From NCBI RefSeq assembly GCF_000384415.1, contig NZ_ARVU01000001.1, positions 1,240,001 to 1,304,000 of the forward strand: a stretch of 64,000 nucleotides of DNA, written 5' to 3'. Source of the stretch: Cycloclasticus pugetii PS-1 (GTDB taxonomy: Bacteria > Pseudomonadota > Gammaproteobacteria > Methylococcales > Cycloclasticaceae). The notes under the pieces were generated by a model. That model was not told the origin of the DNA and made no database searches. It saw nothing but the letters and a program-made list of their open reading frames with translations. The position numbers and the translations under genes are program-made. Positions 8,147-15,057 of this stretch are shown here, one piece after another; within the stretch, counting starts at the first letter, position 1, and each line of letters opens with the position of its first letter.

Positions 8147-9772
8147 TTATTCCCAAACCCAGTGTTTATACTGTTCTCGCAGTGCCATTTTCATAAATTT
8201 ACCCGTTGATGTTTTAGGAATTTCAGCAATCACCTCCACCGCATCAGGCAACCACATTTTAGTAAACTTGCCGTCTAAAAATTGACGTATATCGTCCGTT
8301 GTTATTTGCTTATCTTCCTTAACCACAACAACCGCTAGAGGCCGCTCATCCCATTTAGGGTGTGCAACAGCAATGACAGCCGCTTCTAATACATCAGGGT
8401 GGCCCATAATTGCGTTTTCAAGATCCACCGAACTAATCCATTCGCCGCCAGATTTAACAAGGTCTTTCGTTCTATCGGTCAGTTTGACATAACCCTCTTG
8501 ATCTATCTGGCAAACATCCCCAGTTTTTAGCCAACCATCTTCGCTAAAACTATCCTCAGCACCTTCATTCTTATGGTATGCAGCGGTTACCCACGGCCCT
8601 TTTAACTCGGCATTACCAGATGTTTTACCATCCCAAGGTAATTCAACACCCTCTTCATCGACAATTCGTATATCAATAAAGGGCAACGTTAAACCTTGTT
8701 TAATTCGGCAGGCATATTTTGCATCTTCATCAAGGTCAGATAGGCTTTCTTTAACGATACCTACGGTGGCTAACGGCCCAGTTTCTGTCATTCCCCACGC
8801 TTGAATAATAGTCATATCAAACTTATCAAACGCCCGAAATAAAGACTCTGGAACAGCCGCTCCGCCAACCACCATTCGCATATTAGGCGCTGTCTTCCAG
8901 CGATTCGGCTCTGCTTCTCTGGCTGTTTTTATTGCCATCCAAATGGTGGGCACACCAGCGCTCAACGTTACTTGTTCGCTTTGGTATAAATCCATCAAAC
9001 TCTCAGCATCTAAATGTGGGCCCGGTAACGCTTGTTTTGCACCGACTAGCACCGATGTATAGCTTAGCCCCCAAGCGTTGGCATGAAACATTGGCACCAC
9101 AGGCGTCACCACATCAGACTGACTAACGCCCAATGTATCAACCATAGCCTCTGCCATTGCATGTAGAACCGTTGAGCGATGGCTATACACAACCCCTTTA
9201 GGGCGGCCTGTTGTGCCCGAGGTATAGCACATCCCCGCTGCATCATTTTCATCAATAATAGGGTAGCTAAAGTCATCATCACCAAGCTTTAAATAATCCT
9301 CGTAATCGGTATATTCGCTGTTAACCTTTTCGCCTGTTAGCGGAACAACGATCACTTCATCTAACGCCACATCATCTTTAAACTGCTCATATAAAGGCAG
9401 TAAAATATCGTCAATAATAAGTACCTTATCGCCAGCATGATTAATAATATAAGCAATATCTTTGGGCGATAATCGTAAATTCACAGTGTGGAGAACACCG
9501 CCCATAATAGGCACCCCAAGGTAAGCCTCAAGGTGCCCGTAATGATTCCACATTAGGGTCGCTACGCCTTCTCCTTTTTTAACACCCCGCTTTGTTAACG
9601 CCGAAGCTAAGCGCTTAGTTCGTTTATGAATATCTAAATAGTGTGTTCTATGCAGGGTTTTATCTGGCAGTCTTGACACCACCTCCACACGCGGATAATA
9701 CGTCTTTAAGCGCTCGACTAAGGTGCTTAATGTTAATGGGTAATCCATCATTGTGCTTTTTATAGACATCAT
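8147..9772 (-). CDS. Acyl-CoA ligase (AMP-forming), medium/long-chain type
   Basis: This 541-residue ANL-superfamily enzyme activates a carboxylic acid to its CoA ester through an acyl-adenylate. The P-loop [15 protein letters not shown] (around 183-197), the GWGMTETGP-like motif [11 protein letters not shown] (around 325) and GWLKTGDV (around 417) followed by [15 protein letters not shown] (around 433) are intact, as is the closing KTSTGKFMK lysine motif. The general sequence is like AlkK/AtuH-type ligases of fatty and isoprenoid acids. It is the first gene of the minus-strand operon and so probably sets its substrate, which I cannot define. Length is normal. The exact start among the first methionines is uncertain. 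Confidence 0.88.
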
Positions 9773-9801
9773 ATTTCCTCGAACGTATACTTAAATTCAA
9801 A

Positions 9802-9811
9802 CTAGCGCTAG
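9802..9811. promoter_or_regulatory. Palindrome upstream of the acyl-CoA ligase operon
   Basis: CTAGCGCTAG is a perfect ten-base palindrome 30-39 bases before the ligase start, in a 296-base gap (9773-10068) between divergent genes. It may be an operator. The half-sites differ in spacing from the CTAA-N6-TTAG sites elsewhere. The rest of the gap holds overlapping opposite-strand reading frames of about 87 codons that show no protein-like features; I see nothing else in it. Confidence 0.3.
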
Positions 9812-10068
9812 GTAAAATATGACTATACCCAAGCCATCCCTCAGGCGCAACGAGCTTATCGTTACAACCGCTTGGTTCTGTAACGAACAGCCATTCAAGC
9901 TAACTACAACCAAACACAGGCCAGGCAACACATCAGCAACCTCGCTACGTTTGCAAATACAAAAAAACATATCCAAATATTGCACTCGCTCGCACAACAA
10001 ACGACTAGAAACGATTATAATTTCAAGCAAGAAGCAACTCCCCACTGTAACTAAACGCAAAAAACCTT

Positions 10069-10629
10069 ATGCCTTTACCTGAAAGTACCTATCCACGAGA
10101 AAACATTCATACTCGCCAAATTACTTGTAACGGCTTTAAAAGGCCTGACGGTTTATGGGATGTCGATGCACAGATTACAGATATTAAAACCTACCCCCTT
10201 GAGAACTCTTACCGTGGCACCATTGAACCGGGTGAACCCATTCATGAAATGTGGATTCGCTTAACAGTCGATACCAATCTGTTGGTTCACGATTGCATTG
10301 CAGTAACAGACCATTCACCCTACGGTTGTTGTGGTGAGATCACGCCTATATTCAACAAACTAATTGGTAAACAAATAGCCCCGGGGTGGACTCGTTTAGT
10401 AAAGTCTTTAGTAGCCGGTATTCAAGGTTGTACGCACCTAGCCGATCTTGTAGGGCCTGCCACGACAACGATTTACCAAACAATGGCGGGAATCGCAAAA
10501 GGCAAAACTGAGAACGAAACATCAAAACCCTTCTATATTGATGGTTGCCATGCATGGAGTAGCGATGGCGAACAAGTTCTTGCCTATCACCCAGAGTATT
10601 ACACCGGAAAAAAAAGCACGCCCAAATAA
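10069..10629 (+). CDS. DUF2889 family protein
   Basis: This 186-residue protein has the hallmark opening of DUF2889: a Pro-rich start, HTRQITCNGFKRPDGLWDVDAQITDIKTYP (the residues TCNGFKRPDGLWD at about 19-31 are most typical), then HEMWIRLTVD and a cysteine-rich HSPYGCCGEITP. A later C-T-H-L-x-D-L segment (around 125-131) suggests metal or cofactor binding. The family's function is not established; members tend to lie near catabolic genes for steroids, lipids and aromatics. It is transcribed away from the beta-oxidation operon and towards the cassette-like block. Cytoplasmic, no signal peptide. Confidence 0.85.
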   Translation: MPLPESTYPRENIHTRQITCNGFKRPDGLWDVDAQITDIKTYPLENSYRGTIEPGEPIHEMWIRLTVDTNLLVHDCIAVTDHSPYGCCGEITPIFNKLIGKQIAPGWTRLVKSLVAGIQGCTHLADLVGPATTTIYQTMAGIAKGKTENETSKPFYIDGCHAWSSDGEQVLAYHPEYYTGKKSTPK

Positions 10630-10690
10630 GCACAGCAAAGGTATAAAAAGGCGCGGAAACCAAGGCTTTCAAATACAGCCATGGTCGGCT

Positions 10691-10924
10691 TTATTGTCTG
10701 GCTTTAACGTACGAACCAATATCTATTGAATAAAAATAGCCACCATCTTCTACTGGCTCAGGGAAATCTATATAAATGTAGGCACGGTGAATCTGCTCTG
10801 CTGGAATAAGCAATTCATAGAATTTTCCTTCTTCTGTATCATCAAGCTGGTTCAAAAAAGACCTTTCTGTTGGGCGCAGTGGAATAATCGATTCAACGCC
10901 AGACAGATTTAATTCTTTACCCAA
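10691..10924 (-). CDS. Hypothetical protein, probable second half of a frameshifted gene
   Basis: This 77-codon frame opens with TTG, has no clear ribosome binding site, and overlaps the end of the preceding exported-protein frame (10909-11178) by sixteen bases in the -1 register. The overlap falls on a run of five T residues (minus strand, plus positions 10923-10927). Adding one T would join the two frames into a single protein of about 161 residues with one signal peptide. I therefore think it is the C-terminal half of a broken or ribosomally shifted gene rather than an independent gene. No family recognised. The sequence is acidic and rich in aromatic beta-strand-like segments near its end. 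Confidence 0.35.
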   Translation of the reverse strand: MGKELNLSGVESIIPLRPTERSFLNQLDDTEEGKFYELLIPAEQIHRAYIYIDFPEPVEDGGYFYSIDIGSYVKARQ

Positions 10925-11178
10925 AAACGCGCTCGCTGATTCTGTTCATCAGGCGGTATAAACTGCGGTATTGTTATAACCCACGCTTGTTTATACGGGT
11001 ATGCAACCGCTTTTAGCCTTATCATATACGACCCATTATCTTCACTTACAGGCGCTACATAAACTCTTAGGTCAACTTCGCTTTCTGTTACAGAAGACAC
11101 ATACGCATAACTGCTCCAAAACGCATAAACGTATGATGAGACGGATAAAAGCAGCAAAAACACAAAAAGCTTACGCAT
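10909..11178 (-). CDS. Hypothetical exported protein (possibly frameshifted N-terminal half)
   Basis: This 89-residue frame begins MRKLFVFLLLLSVSSYVYAF, a clear Sec signal peptide with likely cleavage after the AYA-like YVYA at about residue 19. The mature part is short and beta-rich (DLRVYVAP, AWVITIPQF). A good ribosome binding site GGAAGGG lies about eight bases upstream. The frame ends in RFWVKN and then a stop, while the next frame in the -1 register continues as a plausible extension. It lies just after a degenerate attC-like hairpin, so it may be the last gene of the cassette array. Function unknown. Confidence 0.5.
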   Translation of the reverse strand: MRKLFVFLLLLSVSSYVYAFWSSYAYVSSVTESEVDLRVYVAPVSEDNGSYMIRLKAVAYPYKQAWVITIPQFIPPDEQNQRARFWVKN

Positions 11179-11192
11179 AGTTGGGCCCTTCC

Positions 11193-11343
11193 ATATAAAG
11201 CTAATGTTAAATATTAAGATGCTAAATCAATCGAGTCTGACCATTGATTTTCAAATCCACAAAATAAGCTAGAGCACTAATTAATAAAAAACAATAAAAA
11301 ATAAAACGAAGCTTATAGGTTCTGATTGAAGGCTTTGTTATGC
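11193..11343 (-). repeat. Degenerate attC-like recombination site (third of the array)
   Basis: On the minus strand the stop codon of the 11338-11682 gene lies within the core-like GCATAAC (plus 11337-11343). It is followed by GCCTTCAATCAGAACC, which pairs imperfectly with 11221-11242. The far end has ATATAAAG at 11193, one base from the ATATAAC core seen in the neighbouring site. It is longer and weaker than the other two sites, so the boundary is approximate. Confidence 0.45.
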
Positions 11344-11682
11344 ATTTTTTTCGTTAAGTACATCTGCAATGTCCAACAGCGAATTAGCAATATCTCTAAG
11401 CAATACTGGATCGCCCGGTATATTTAGCGCAGGATAATCAACTCCGAAGGTATGCTCATAGTGTCCGGGATAATTGGTTTTTAAAGGGGATATCTCTACA
11501 TTTGTTGCTGAAAATGATATACCTAACCCGTAATAATGTTCATAGCGTTTCTTACCGCTTGCTAGTGACTCAAAAAAACTTCTTGATACAAAAGAACTCG
11601 GATGCTCATATCTCCACTTTATCTCTAGAAGCCCTTTTTCAAAATACTTCTTATCTTTCTCTTCTATGTACGAATCACCCAT
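11338..11682 (-). CDS. Hypothetical protein, cassette-borne
   Basis: A 114-residue protein from the ATG at 11682, which has GAGG seven bases upstream; an earlier in-frame ATG at 11703 overlaps the attC-like core and is less likely. It is mixed in charge, with lysine- and glutamate-rich N-terminal third (EEKDKKYFEKG) and a C-terminal helix ending LLDIADVLNEKNA, and has no membrane segment or signal peptide. I recognise no family. Its stop codon lies inside the next attC-like core and its start directly follows the previous one, the compact layout of an integron gene cassette. Confidence 0.6.
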   Translation of the reverse strand: MGDSYIEEKDKKYFEKGLLEIKWRYEHPSSFVSRSFFESLASGKKRYEHYYGLGISFSATNVEISPLKTNYPGHYEHTFGVDYPALNIPGDPVLLRDIANSLLDIADVLNEKNA

Positions 11683-11699
11683 GCCGATTCCTCTTTGAT

Positions 11700-11759
11700 G
11701 CATAACGTTTTAAATAAGCCGCCGCGTCTTTTGCGGTCTGATTGATTTTTTTGTTATAT
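11700..11759 (-). repeat. attC-like site (59-base-element type), second of the array
   Basis: This 60-base element runs on the minus strand from ATATAAC (plus 11753-11759) to CGTTATGC (plus 11700-11707), giving R''-like and R'-like cores that pair as inverted repeats. Inside, GCGG at 11733-11736 pairs with CCGC at 11719-11722 and the stem continues past an unpaired base towards AATAAG at 11713-11718. An imperfect hairpin with extrahelical bases, placed directly between a stop codon and the next start, is what attC sites look like. Confidence 0.65.
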
Positions 11760-11761
11760 GT

Positions 11762-12304
11762 TTATACCTCCAAAAATTCAGACAACACATGTCTTGGAAC
11801 TGTTTCTACGTCGGTATTTTTAGCTATTAAGTCTACCAATATATTGGCATTTTGATATACAGTTGTGGCGACTTCAAAAGTTGCCATTTTTTCCCACTCT
11901 GCTGCTGGCCAAGAATTTTTTCCAATTTCTAGGAAATGCTTGGACTTCTGATGCGATAAACTTTCGGTCACCGAATGTGCCATAGTATTTCTAAATCTAA
12001 ATGTGGCTCGAAAGGACTGAAATGGCTCAATCCCAAAATTGACATTAACTTTTACCTTCTCACAGATCAACGCAAGTTTGGCTTCGATACCTAATGATTT
12101 TTTAAGATTATCCTGCCAACATTTGAATATTTGTTCTCCGATATGATTAAGATACGCCTCTATTGCAAAAGCTGAAAATACAATTGATGCCGTCGAATTA
12201 TTGTATTCACTTTTTTCTTGATCATGTTGTTCATCCAAAAATGACTCGGCCATCATAAAATGATGATTATAAGTGTACACTTTTCTATAAGTTTCTTTAT
12301 TCAC
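11762..12304 (-). CDS. HEPN-like protein, cassette-borne
   Basis: A 180-residue, largely helical protein with no signal peptide. It contains FRFRNTMAH around residue 103-111, an R-N-x3-H (Rx4H) motif in the right helical setting for the HEPN superfamily, whose members are often metal-independent RNases in toxin-antitoxin and defence systems; an earlier segment IVFSAFAIEAYLNHIGEQIF also resembles the HEPN core helix. It occupies one cassette, flanked by attC-like sites on both sides, with no obvious partner gene in the same cassette. RNase or toxin activity is inference; the HEPN assignment rests on the motif and helical pattern. Some HEPN proteins are inactive. Confidence 0.6.
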   Translation of the reverse strand: MNKETYRKVYTYNHHFMMAESFLDEQHDQEKSEYNNSTASIVFSAFAIEAYLNHIGEQIFKCWQDNLKKSLGIEAKLALICEKVKVNVNFGIEPFQSFRATFRFRNTMAHSVTESLSHQKSKHFLEIGKNSWPAAEWEKMATFEVATTVYQNANILVDLIAKNTDVETVPRHVLSEFLEV

Positions 12305-12319
12305 TTATCGATCCTTAAC

Positions 12320-12424
12320 ATATAACGCCTAGCTCAGCGGTTGGCGAAAGTGGCGATTCTTTTGCAGCTTTTTCGCAAAAGAAGTGACGCTTTTGGCAAT
12401 CCGATGCAGCAACTTATTATACGC
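12320..12424 (-). repeat. attC-like site, first of the array
   Basis: This 105-base element carries the core GTTATAT on the minus strand (plus 12320-12326) and a one-mismatch core at 12418-12424. Between them is a long imperfect hairpin: TTCTTTTGC (12357-12365) pairs exactly with GCAAAAGAA (12375-12383), and the outer arms GCTCAGCGGTTG (12332-12343) and CAATCCGATGCAGC (12397-12410) also pair with bulges. Length and bulged palindromic layout resemble long attC sites such as Vibrio repeats. Confidence 0.65.
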
Positions 12425-12426
12425 AT

Positions 12427-12933
12427 TTATGATATTAGCAATACATGCATGCGCTTTACTATCATTAATATTGTTAGTATTAAGTTAACAGCAGTTACTA
12501 TAATTAATGGAGTAATAAAGTAAATATTCATAAACGGTGAAAAAGCCTCGACTACGGTATGGAGCAAACAAATAACAACCAAAAAAACTGACATAATAAT
12601 GCAGTAACAAATATTGTAGTAAAGGTGATTTAAGAGAGACTTCTTAGCATTTTTTAATGATGCATCGGTGTTTTGATCGATTTTATTTTCTTGGTCATAG
12701 ACGAGTACTAAAACGCTAAGTAATAATGCTGTAAAAATAGCACCGAAATTAACTAGTAATGAAGATATTTCTTTGCTTATATTGAAGCAGAAAAAAATTC
12801 CAAATCCGGCGATAATTGCAGGCAATATATAGAACGAAAACATGTCTGCAAAGCTAATGCTTTTTTTACCCGCATCAACTAAAGTACCAATGTGCCCAGT
12901 TACAATGTCTTTAACATTTAATTTTGAACTCAT
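12427..12933 (-). CDS. Hypothetical four-helix membrane protein, cassette-borne
   Basis: A 168-residue protein with four predicted membrane segments, at about residues 31-51, 56-78, 105-127 and 134-160. A hydrophilic loop (NKIDQNTDASLKNAKKS) lies between the second and third, and the N-terminus is soluble. It overlaps the preceding 308-residue gene by four bases (ATGA), so the two are made together. No family recognised; the general shape recalls small membrane effectors paired with a soluble partner in defence systems, which is only an analogy. The stop codon lies two bases before the attC-like site, placing both genes in one cassette. Confidence 0.65.
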   Translation of the reverse strand: MSSKLNVKDIVTGHIGTLVDAGKKSISFADMFSFYILPAIIAGFGIFFCFNISKEISSLLVNFGAIFTALLLSVLVLVYDQENKIDQNTDASLKNAKKSLLNHLYYNICYCIIMSVFLVVICLLHTVVEAFSPFMNIYFITPLIIVTAVNLILTILMIVKRMHVLLIS

Positions 12934-13856
12934 GGTTGCACTCCAAATTCTGGATACATATCTAAGACATACTCACTAATTATTACTAATACCCACCTAT
13001 TTACGGACTCTATCATTGGCGCGCCATCTTGCATTTGGACGCTGTCATCAAAGTCTATGCGACAAACACTATTGAATGCATCTGCGCCAACAGTAAATGT
13101 TCGTTTTTTACCGTTCAATTCAACAACTGTTTTAACTTGGCTGCCGAGTTCACTTAATACTTCAACTATTTTAGCTTGCTCACTATCAGGGTTAAAAAAA
13201 TCCTTTAATGACCCGAATGTACCTTTCCTTGGAGGTTTCATTGTTAACTCCTGTTCTTCGTGTCCTAGGTTTTTAATTTGGTCTGCTATGTCTGTTAAGC
13301 CTTTGAATTTTGTTATTTTTAATTCTTTGGTGTTTGCCTCTTGCCAGTTTTCTATTGCTTTCTCGTAAGCGAGCGGGCTTAACTGTAAATTTAGAGTAGT
13401 TGCTTCTCGAAAATAGGGTGAGAAGATATCTGTAAATAATGTTTTAACACCGTGCCCTCTGTAGCTATGCATCATGCATATTGCTTCATTAAAGCCGACG
13501 GGTATAAACATGTGTAGATAATGCTTGATTATCTCTGCATTATTTTGAGCTTTTTCGAAATCAACCTGACCACTTTCGATGTTTATAATGTCAGTTTTTA
13601 TTCCATATGTTCCCACTTGAAACCAACCATAAATATGTCTTGTTTCATCGTTGAATGACATTTTACTGAATTTATACACTTGCTTTGAATCTTCCACAAC
13701 GTGATAGTTTTCAGTTTTTGCGGATATGAAAATCTTAAGTAGGCTGTAAAGATCATGTTGGCCGATTTGATCTAATACGCAATATCTATCTTCAATTTTT
13801 TTTGATTCTATTGCCGGATTAAAGCAACGCATCGCGTATGGTGATATCGAGTGCAT
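12930..13856 (-). CDS. Hypothetical protein, cassette-borne, partner of the four-helix membrane protein
   Basis: A 308-residue soluble protein of unknown family. It has mixed alpha/beta composition and a central segment MMHSYRGHGVKTLFTDIF (around 128-145). A charged linker (NLGHEEQELTMKPPRKG, around 195-211) precedes a C-terminal beta-rich domain (VVELNGKKRTFTVGAD), and it ends in a hydrophobic helix. A ribosome binding site AGGAG lies eight bases before the ATG. Just upstream is GTTATAC (minus strand), an integron core-like sequence. It is coupled by a four-base overlap to the membrane-protein gene. Possible role as the sensor or regulatory half of a two-component unit is inference from layout only. 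Confidence 0.65.
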   Translation of the reverse strand: MHSISPYAMRCFNPAIESKKIEDRYCVLDQIGQHDLYSLLKIFISAKTENYHVVEDSKQVYKFSKMSFNDETRHIYGWFQVGTYGIKTDIINIESGQVDFEKAQNNAEIIKHYLHMFIPVGFNEAICMMHSYRGHGVKTLFTDIFSPYFREATTLNLQLSPLAYEKAIENWQEANTKELKITKFKGLTDIADQIKNLGHEEQELTMKPPRKGTFGSLKDFFNPDSEQAKIVEVLSELGSQVKTVVELNGKKRTFTVGADAFNSVCRIDFDDSVQMQDGAPMIESVNRWVLVIISEYVLDMYPEFGVQP

Positions 13857-13876
13857 TTAAATCTCCTATTTTATGC

Positions 13877-13966
13877 GTATAACAGTATTAATAAGCGGAA
13901 AGCCAATGTCCACGTATTAGTTGTATATAGGTGGATAGTACTTCCATGTATTTTGATATTAGCACA
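13877..13966 (-). repeat. Possible attC/attI-like site bounding the cassette array
   Basis: On the minus strand this element ends in GTTATACGC, a good core (plus 13875-13883), shortly before the first cassette gene. GGAAAGCCAATGTCCAC (13898-13914) pairs imperfectly with GTGGATAGTACTTCC (13931-13945). The distal core near 13957-13964 is degenerate. It could be the attachment site of the whole array or one more attC. Boundaries are approximate. Confidence 0.4.
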
Positions 13967-14031
13967 TCAAACATGGATAAAACCCTTTTAGCCGCCCTAC
14001 TTTCTTTAACGGTAGTACCTTAGCAGTGGGC

Positions 14032-15057
14032 TTATGCCATAAAAATAACTAATCCCCAGTCTAGTACGTGGTCATTTTTGCATTCTTTAGGTGCATTTTC
14101 TCCGCGGTCAGCCCATACGTTGATTTGTAAATCTACTAGCCCACCACCCGATGCTAACGGTGTTTTTTTCAATACTGATATTTCGCTACGTAAAATATCG
14201 TCTTCAAACACGGGGGCTAGGTGATTACAGTGCCGCCAAGCTAATATTGACAAGGTGTTTGGCAGGGCTCTTATTAGTTGGGCTGCTGCCATCGAGATAG
14301 TATGCCCACCATATACCAAGCGTTTGCCATAAACGCTGGCGCCAGCGTCTGTATGTGTCATAGCTAGGTTAAGCGTTGTTCTGGTTAGTTCTGGCGCGGA
14401 GGTTACTGTGTCCCTTGCTTTAATTTTAAATAAAACGTCTGTTTCTACTTGGTCAAAATGGATGCCCGCAAAACGCTTTTTATACGTTGCCAAGTCCCAG
14501 TCTGTTGGTACTGCCTCTACCAAGCTTTGCGTAGAAATATCAGACGGCATAATATCTAAGTCATCTGCATGGGTGGTTTGTACTTTTGGATCACGACACG
14601 GCACCATTGGGCAGCGCCAAAAATGCAAAATTTCTTCACCCCGTTGGTTTGTGGTGGTAATTTCAAGCCCCACCATACCTGTTGAGGGACGCCCGCCTTT
14701 GACTTTATTTTGCCGTAAGGCAACAATTTTTGTTGTTGTGCTTAAGGTATCGCCGATATAGACCGGTTTTTTAAGAACCAAGCCTCTATAAAACAAATTA
14801 CCCATTACATTTTGCGTGGCATAGGTTGTTTGCCCTATCGCAAAACCCATTGCCATAATAGCGTTTGCTAACGGACGATCTGAACCGGTTATTTCGTGTG
14901 TTAAATGACGATCTAACGGCAGCCTTAAACGATCACCAAACAACATTTGATGCAAGGTTGCATGGCCATCGGTAATGGTTATGGATGGCGGTTCTTCTAG
15001 GAACTCGCCAATTGTAAAGTCTTCAAAATAAGGGCCATCAATTAAAATCTCTTTCAT
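14032..15057 (-). CDS. MaoC-family double hot-dog hydratase/dehydratase
   Basis: This 341-residue protein has two MaoC-like halves. The first contains FEDFTIGEF and GDRLRLPLD, then YRGLVLKKPVYIGDTLSTTTKI; the second contains TRTTLNLAMTHTDAG and LVYGGHTISMAAAQL, the latter matching the family's GxHxxxxA helix. Two-hot-dog members include mesaconyl-CoA and itaconyl-CoA hydratases and 3-hydroxyacyl-CoA dehydratases. The CitE-like lyase gene lies 16 bases upstream in the same operon, which supports a C5-dicarboxyl-CoA or methylmalyl/citramalyl-type pathway. Exact substrate is inference. The length is typical of mesaconyl-CoA hydratase-like proteins. Confidence 0.78.
   Translation of the reverse strand: MKEILIDGPYFEDFTIGEFLEEPPSITITDGHATLHQMLFGDRLRLPLDRHLTHEITGSDRPLANAIMAMGFAIGQTTYATQNVMGNLFYRGLVLKKPVYIGDTLSTTTKIVALRQNKVKGGRPSTGMVGLEITTTNQRGEEILHFWRCPMVPCRDPKVQTTHADDLDIMPSDISTQSLVEAVPTDWDLATYKKRFAGIHFDQVETDVLFKIKARDTVTSAPELTRTTLNLAMTHTDAGASVYGKRLVYGGHTISMAAAQLIRALPNTLSILAWRHCNHLAPVFEDDILRSEISVLKKTPLASGGGLVDLQINVWADRGENAPKECKNDHVLDWGLVIFMA

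Follow-up and report, generated by a model that had tools for sequence, protein, structure and literature searches.

What does a small gene of Cycloclasticus pugetii PS-1 encode, when its product carries the R-N-x3-H motif of HEPN ribonucleases and the gene stands alone in what resembles an integron gene cassette? The gene lies on the reverse strand at positions 11762 to 12304 of a 64,000-nucleotide stretch of DNA, referred to here as the window (contig NZ_ARVU01000001.1, positions 1,240,001 to 1,304,000), and all plain coordinates below are those of the window. It is an intact open reading frame (ORF) that belongs to a real, although unlisted, protein family, its product has a HEPN-like predicted fold, and it occupies a one-gene stretch between attC-like cores. 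We propose, with a probability of about 0.5, that it encodes a stand-alone HEPN endoribonuclease borne on an integron-type cassette, which would remain latent and arrest growth when triggered, probably by a phage. This assignment draws on a predicted structure and on analogy with known HEPN effectors.

Conserved motif and predicted fold

The gene and its motif are placed as follows.
11762 to 12304, reverse strand: gene of the HEPN-like protein, 180 residues with a GTG start, including E49, N53, W63, K76, R105-N106-x3-H110 and W137
11975 to 11992, reverse strand: codons of R105-N106-T-M-A-H110, the motif of HEPN catalytic type

The ORF is undisrupted and initiates at GTG, with an AAGGA stretch 7 nt ahead of the start codon. 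The initial annotation, made from the sequence of the window, had noted R-N-x3-H in a helix-rich protein of 180 residues and was correct in this, although the segment FRFRNTMAH occupies residues 102-110 (R at 105, N at 106, H at 110) and not 103-111 as then given. By itself the motif is within chance expectation, R-N-x3-H being found in two and R-x4-H in 16 of the 72 ORFs of at least 100 residues in the window. It is raised above chance because it is conserved in relatives and coincides with a suitable predicted fold, and on these two grounds a chance motif was rejected as the explanation.

Conservation was followed in alignments of seven sequences drawn from the class-genome and plasmid matches (A1), of a closer set of three (A2) and of 16 rows (A3). 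Invariant in all 16 rows of A3 are A45, F46, E49, A50, L52, N53, G56, W63, K76, R105, H110 and W137. The peptide patterns used in the A2 search included AFxxEAYLN and AKxxxICE, so the conservation of these two segments is partly built in; the R-x4-H motif was not among them. A larger set consisted of the 30 distinct family ORFs in the fetched loci at a profile expectation (E) value of 0.001. Three of these (L005, L017 and L020) were counted although they end ahead of the motif, and 27 rows reach it. Two matches of the class search were excluded from the family, namely L006, whose frame is interrupted by a TGA, and L008, whose long ORF looks repetitive. R105 and H110 are retained in 27 of the 27 rows, so the pairing of Arg and His that the initial annotation had singled out for comparison among homologues proved to be constant. 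In 26 of the 27 the Arg is followed by N or D (residue 106). Glutamate occupies position 49 in all 28 rows with a letter there, and position 53 is N, not K or R, in 27 of 28. In a tree of 23 rows, 10 of 20 forks were open and the window protein grouped, on long branches, with a sequence from Myxococcota, and for both reasons no history was drawn from it.

An AlphaFold2 model of the window protein, computed on the 16 rows of A3, had a predicted local distance difference test score (pLDDT) of 87.5 and a predicted template modelling score (pTM) of 0.83. Helices were assigned to residues 11-28, 33-59, 63-70, 73-83, 96-109, 136-140 and 143-162. A HEPN-like four-helix core, as sought by the initial annotation, is present in the model, with R105 and H110 at the end of core helix 3 and E49 in helix 2 (residues 33-59). 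The R-[N/D]-x3-H motif is thus conserved at the predicted end of core helix 3 and the glutamate within predicted helix 2. The placement matches that described for HEPN RNases in passages of PMC3710099, where the motif ends helix 3 and an acidic residue lies in helix 2. The same passages hold further likenesses to the superfamily, namely the four-helix core, an Rx4H with N or D after the R, and a helical insert between helices 2 and 3; the window family differs in having ExxxN where many families have Ex3[KR].

Structure searches with the model returned mainly HEPN chains. Rows 1-4 from Foldseek are HEPN toxins at probabilities of 0.99-1.00, yet with E of only 0.05-0.14. VIA-align, which merely re-ranks the matches from Foldseek, placed the HEPN chain 4nqf, the sacsin HEPN domain 3o10 and 2hsb on top, the titles of all three naming HEPN (Z 10.8, root-mean-square deviation 2.9-3.1, 120-122 residues aligned). 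Classed by title or by passages from papers, 32 of its rows 1-36 are HEPN, HepT, nucleotidyltransferase-associated HEPN, Csm6, LsoA, HepS, MtlR or Las1 chains; this count includes 1jog and 1wty, which we take to be HEPN chains. The rows without such a label are 1ufb, 2q00, 3mfn and 3c8g, and the first clearly unrelated row is a designed binder in row 37 (Z 5.8). The weight of the predicted fold lies in this filling of the list by a single kind of fold, together with the position of the motif. Nothing clear emerged from a structure search of BFVD, in which the best hit had an E of 0.027, a probability of 0.96 and a TM-score of 0.35.

The family was sought in sequence libraries as well. No library family was above its cut-off for the window protein, the best E being 0.083 in Pfam, 0.068 in NCBIfam and 0.023 in PHROGs, and PADLOC gave no match at E 1. 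Neither PF18735 (HEPN_RiboL-PSP, cut-off 28.4 bits) nor PF18737 (HEPN_MAE_28990, cut-off 26.8 bits) matched the protein at E 1, and neither matched its genome. These two are nevertheless the HEPN models that the relatives touch most when the 16 members are scanned singly: HEPN_RiboL-PSP was touched weakly by three (best E 0.002), with both of the bit scores displayed for relatives under the cut-off, and HEPN_MAE_28990 by four (best E 0.0039). HEPN_Apea was touched by one relative outside A3 (E 0.026), and in PADLOC HEC-01B (E 0.0087) and PtuA (E 0.025) by one member each. All of these weak matches are leads only. Among 143 genomes PF18737 occurred in two, both times at sites where PF18735 was also found. 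Of the example families named in the initial annotation, RiboL-PSP may be distant kin at most, and HEPN_Cthe_2314 was not listed at E 1 for the window protein or the 16 members, in a library not checked for the presence of such a model.

Searches of the Protein Data Bank by sequence were likewise negative. The A3 profile matched no chain of the sequence copy at E 10, 3jrt included, and phmmer gave two allene oxide cyclase matches (E 0.33 and 0.58) that were taken as chance. Judged against Pfam, NCBIfam and PADLOC, the window protein therefore looks like a member of an unlisted family inside the HEPN superfamily. No description of the family was found in the titles and abstract openings of the best-matching open-licence papers.

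The cassette and the loci of relatives

The gene is enclosed by the following elements.
11706 to 12325, reverse strand: gene cassette of 620 nt between two GTT cores, with the HEPN-like gene as its sole content
12320 to 12422, reverse strand: attC-like site of the preceding cassette (GTATAATAAG...CTAGGCGTTATAT), a long bottom-strand hairpin, z -3.74, arm score 11
11700 to 11759, reverse strand: attC-like site closing the HEPN cassette (ATATAAC...GTTATGC), weak fold, z -0.28, arm score 6

The two cores, GTTATATG (G at 12326) and GTTATGCA (G at 11706), enclose 620 nt. The ORF takes up 543 of these and leaves 77 nt outside it, 21 before and 56 after. Sites of attC type form long bulged hairpins on the bottom strand. 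Strong bottom-strand folding into such a hairpin was seen for the site on the 12.3-kb side, which was equalled by none of 200 shuffles. The site on the 11.7-kb side showed no strong folding, 72 of 200 shuffles doing as well, and a scan for attC arm pairing singled out neither site, the best unrelated pair scoring 17. The description of the gene as a lone cassette gene thus stands with respect to its being the only ORF between GTT cores and to the 12.3-kb-side hairpin, while the 11.7-kb-side site and the arm scan leave it weaker. The statement that the cassette holds no antitoxin-like partner is borne out, there being no room for a second gene. An RNA antitoxin as in the AbiF-type system (PMC12373285) was rejected because the cassette has only 21 nt and 56 nt to spare; this argument covers an RNA located beside the ORF, and one that is antisense or lies farther away may still exist. 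Furthermore, a search of 9700-14200 against Rfam at E 1 gave no match, which makes a known RNA antitoxin in this region less likely.

The gene is patchily distributed. With the genome of origin counted, it was found in one of 18 genomes of the genus, 10 of 369 of the class and five of 398 in a draw from the phylum; the search of the 369 class genomes itself gave eight with a match at E 0.01, again including the genome of origin. No relative was found among the 17 other genomes of the genus; of its 18 genomes, 10 have a completeness of 90% or more and a contamination of no more than 5%. Two of 72,556 plasmid records matched (E 7e-6 and 1e-3, coverage 74% and 61%). The A2 search yielded 14 loci on genome contigs from 43 pattern stretches and one viral contig from 135 stretches, the relatives belonging to Gamma-, Beta- and Alphaproteobacteria and to metagenome-assembled genomes titled Deltaproteobacteria. 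When patterns of the single protein were used, genome contigs gave 27 stretches, none of which was confirmed as a relative, and viral contigs gave no relative; a search of phage records with the single protein was likewise without a match.

The nearest ORFs were listed at 15 loci of relatives, and ten chosen neighbours were scanned against families. Seven of the ten were over the cut-off: DUF2971, copG-type, DNA methylase, SpoIIAA-like, resolvase, HNH endonuclease (on the viral contig) and a primase-like piece. Two others were below the cut-off and one was unmatched. The resolvase, DNA methylase and DUF2971 genes each lie near a single relative only. One of the two matches below the cut-off is in Methylocystis (L024), where a gene with a weak match to a Cro/C1-type helix-turn-helix (HTH) family (E 0.0059) lies 27 nt upstream of the relative. 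On a Bradyrhizobium plasmid a phospholipase gene of a cyclic-oligonucleotide-based anti-phage signalling system (CBASS) is 1.8 kb from the relative, and on an Acinetobacter plasmid a vapBC pair is 1.3 kb away.

Proposed role and its alternatives

The protein probably lies dormant and acts as a switch against viruses or under stress, a type that is broadly known. In the proposed mechanism two chains would dimerise with both R105/H110 pairs lining one cleft, which would cut RNA without a metal. The protein would be silent at rest, because no antitoxin travels with the gene in its cassette, and would become active on a signal, for which a phage product is the likeliest candidate. Once triggered it would halt growth, keeping the infection or stress from being passed on.

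Two prophage proteins offer a precedent. HepS is reportedly switched on by a phage product in a similar way. Tha and HepS resemble the window protein in their HEPN motif or fold and in their location on a mobile element; Tha also has no classical antitoxin, and HepS is not known to have one. HepS of Gifsy-1 has been solved in complex with a phage tail tip (title of PDB entry 9oik), and a predicted HEPN protein of Gifsy-1 is mentioned in a passage of PMC9879122. For Tha, a prophage HEPN RNase, passages of PMC11087260 report that phage tail proteins are the trigger, that the His of the motif is required and that growth is not slowed by plasmid-expressed Tha. Tha differs in size, having 301 residues with the HEPN portion at 184-296 (same passages of PMC11087260). 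No PDB chain was matched by sequence, in a copy not checked for the inclusion of 9oik. Tha and HepS are analogies, not evidence of homology. PMC12409362 reviews chromosomal integrons as stores of anti-phage genes and also states that no shuffling was observed for the integron of pandemic V. cholerae.

Several results weigh against a latent, phage-triggered RNase. Of the 27 family rows, 26 have Lys or Arg at H+2, the second residue past the His of the motif, and the sole exception is the window protein itself, with V112 (codon 11969-11971, reverse strand). Between 11200 and 14060, promoter-like signals are about as frequent as chance predicts, with 13 found and 11.8 expected. A recurring partner or defence gene was not seen at the loci of relatives, in a sample that is small and was read partly by eye. 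The model's Z values (best 10.8, 4.4 at rank 50) fall below those of helical models without clear Foldseek matches, for which the best Z was about 14 and that at rank 50 was 6; because such unmatched models often reach about 14, the Z value by itself is not decisive. A second AlphaFold2 model, of a relative on seven rows, had a broadly similar order of helices at a pLDDT of 46.2 and did not confirm the fold, and the HEPN-like fold is thus predicted from one good model. Alignment by hhalign of A3 with A5, an alignment of nine RiboL-PSP proteins over the cut-off from the 143 genomes, paired the R-x4-H motifs at a probability of only 35%. Moreover, an unrelated aminotransferase model was touched by two of the 16 members (best E 0.0014); since unrelated models match the relatives at a strength similar to that of the HEPN models, such library E-values are weak. 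Finally, the Tha prophage bears a separate gene, ith, that prevents autoimmunity, so that Tha is not wholly alone (passage of PMC11087260). Confidence was held at about 0.5 because of V112 and the chance-level promoter signals, the function being a predicted one.

The possibility was considered that the protein is an active HEPN RNase not tied to phage, an orphan or stress-dormancy toxin that slows translation under stress and is kept harmless because the array is expressed at a low level or because a factor from another locus restrains it. Such a role has been proposed for HEPN domains of integron cassettes in a passage of PMC3710099, and it would suit a cassette without a second gene. The HTH-type gene of Methylocystis is in an antitoxin-like arrangement with its neighbour, but an adjacent gene of this kind was seen by eye at only one of the 15 loci, and some relatives are carried on plasmid or phage DNA or have genes of defence type nearby. 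This explanation is possible, although we regard it as improbable. An impaired or decaying copy was thought rather unlikely: the family would be active, while the window member, in a silent array, would have lost a needed basic residue by its active site. Its V112 in place of the basic residue, a long end branch in the 23-row tree (1.9 changes per column, the median being 1.17), the chance-level promoter signals and the distance of 1.1 Mb to the integron integrase would all be expected of such a copy; its ORF, however, is undamaged and has kept the start, the ribosome-binding stretch and the core residues.

The last alternative is that the protein is not an enzyme and forms the substrate-binding half of a two-part nucleotidyltransferase, as passages of PMC3548836 suggest for Vpc_cass2 (3jrt). 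The broad bundle is common to 1jog, 1wty and 1ylm, the chains with which Vpc_cass2 was compared. A nucleotidyltransferase was found among none of the ten scanned neighbours, and the annotated one on the Bradyrhizobium plasmid is 3.3 kb from the relative, within the CBASS-type cluster; we regard this role as very improbable. Vpc_cass2 is like the window protein in being a HEPN-type helical protein borne as an integron cassette gene, and its structure was already described in 2013 as that of an integron-cassette HEPN with a proposed role in stress dormancy (passage of PMC3710099). Its helices have the order 1-2-3-a'-a''-4, the additional ones following helix 3 and helix 2 leading directly to helix 3 (passages of PMC3548836), whereas in the window model helices 63-70 and 73-83 fall between 2 and 3. 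Membership of the 3jrt family was rejected by sequence and by helix order; the absence of 3jrt from the listed VIA-align rows carries no evidential weight.

The HepT toxins of HEPN-MNT systems share the predicted fold (VIA-align Z up to 10.1) and the Rx4H. They differ at H+2, where HepT has Tyr (R102, H107 and Y109 in PDB titles), the window protein V112 and its relatives K or R. The Tyr of HepT is the AMPylated residue. A HEPN-MNT toxin was rejected, as there is neither an adjacent MNT gene nor a Tyr at H+2.

Returning to the latent HEPN endoribonuclease, the family may tentatively be regarded as an undescribed class of antitoxin-free proteins that act as phage sensor and effector in one, although we hold this more doubtful than the role of the single gene. 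It would consist of HEPN RNases of about 190 residues that recognise their trigger themselves through the AFxxEAYLNxxG helix, W63, K76, W137 and the 110-142 loop, and that move on integron cassettes, plasmids and prophages. The HEPN RNase fold is familiar among effectors, and HEPN proteins borne on cassettes have been on record since 2013. The addition made here is a distinct and unlisted family whose motif of catalytic type is fixed; it was found on one cassette, two plasmids and one viral contig. If the protein does work alone, sensing and acting would be combined in one gene, and integron arrays would have a further case of stored defence genes.

The surrounding array

The neighbourhood of the HEPN cassette comprises the following.
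12427 to 13856, reverse strand: preceding cassette, with two overlapping ORFs (308 and 168 residues) that are kin to adjacent genes of Pseudomonas phage PfAC16
11338 to 11703, reverse strand: following cassette-like ORF, 121 residues, no family over cut-off
13872 to 13990, reverse strand: 119-bp block, 92% shared with a cassette-like array in G369, another genome of the genus, the homology ending just past its GTT core, 12 bases from the start of the core

The ORFs of 12427-13856 and that of 11338-11703 had no Pfam match above the cut-off. The 308- and 168-residue ORFs match, with 46.6% and 52% identity over 99%, a pair of neighbouring genes at the beginning of PfAC16 (OR863247), which by name and size is a Pf-type filamentous phage, and the 168-residue ORF bears hydrophobic stretches. 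A two-gene module is thus common to the integron-like array and this phage.

Of 41 genomes searched for a MaoC-like gene resembling the one at 14032, 13 contained it, the genome of origin among them. The region was fetched from seven genomes and compared in six. In these six members of the genus the MaoC-like gene is followed by ORFs read as an alpha/beta hydrolase and a short-chain dehydrogenase/reductase (SDR). Both are missing from 10630-14031 of the window, where cassettes stand in their place. G369 retains the hydrolase and SDR ORFs, beyond which lies an array that is also cassette-like but differs from that of the window and is reached through the 119-bp block (L070:4761-4879). The block may be a common entry site of the two arrays.

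The window locus is read as an integrase-less cassette cluster. One integron integrase gene in the genome was over the NCBIfam cut-off, at G000:C1:144574, 1.1 Mb away. In the surrounding region (G000:C1:138000-157000) an attC-like site lies about 0.6 kb from the integrase gene, which also has a transposase-like ORF, named by eye, beside it. A near-identical start of this transposase-like ORF was also seen in the array of G369.
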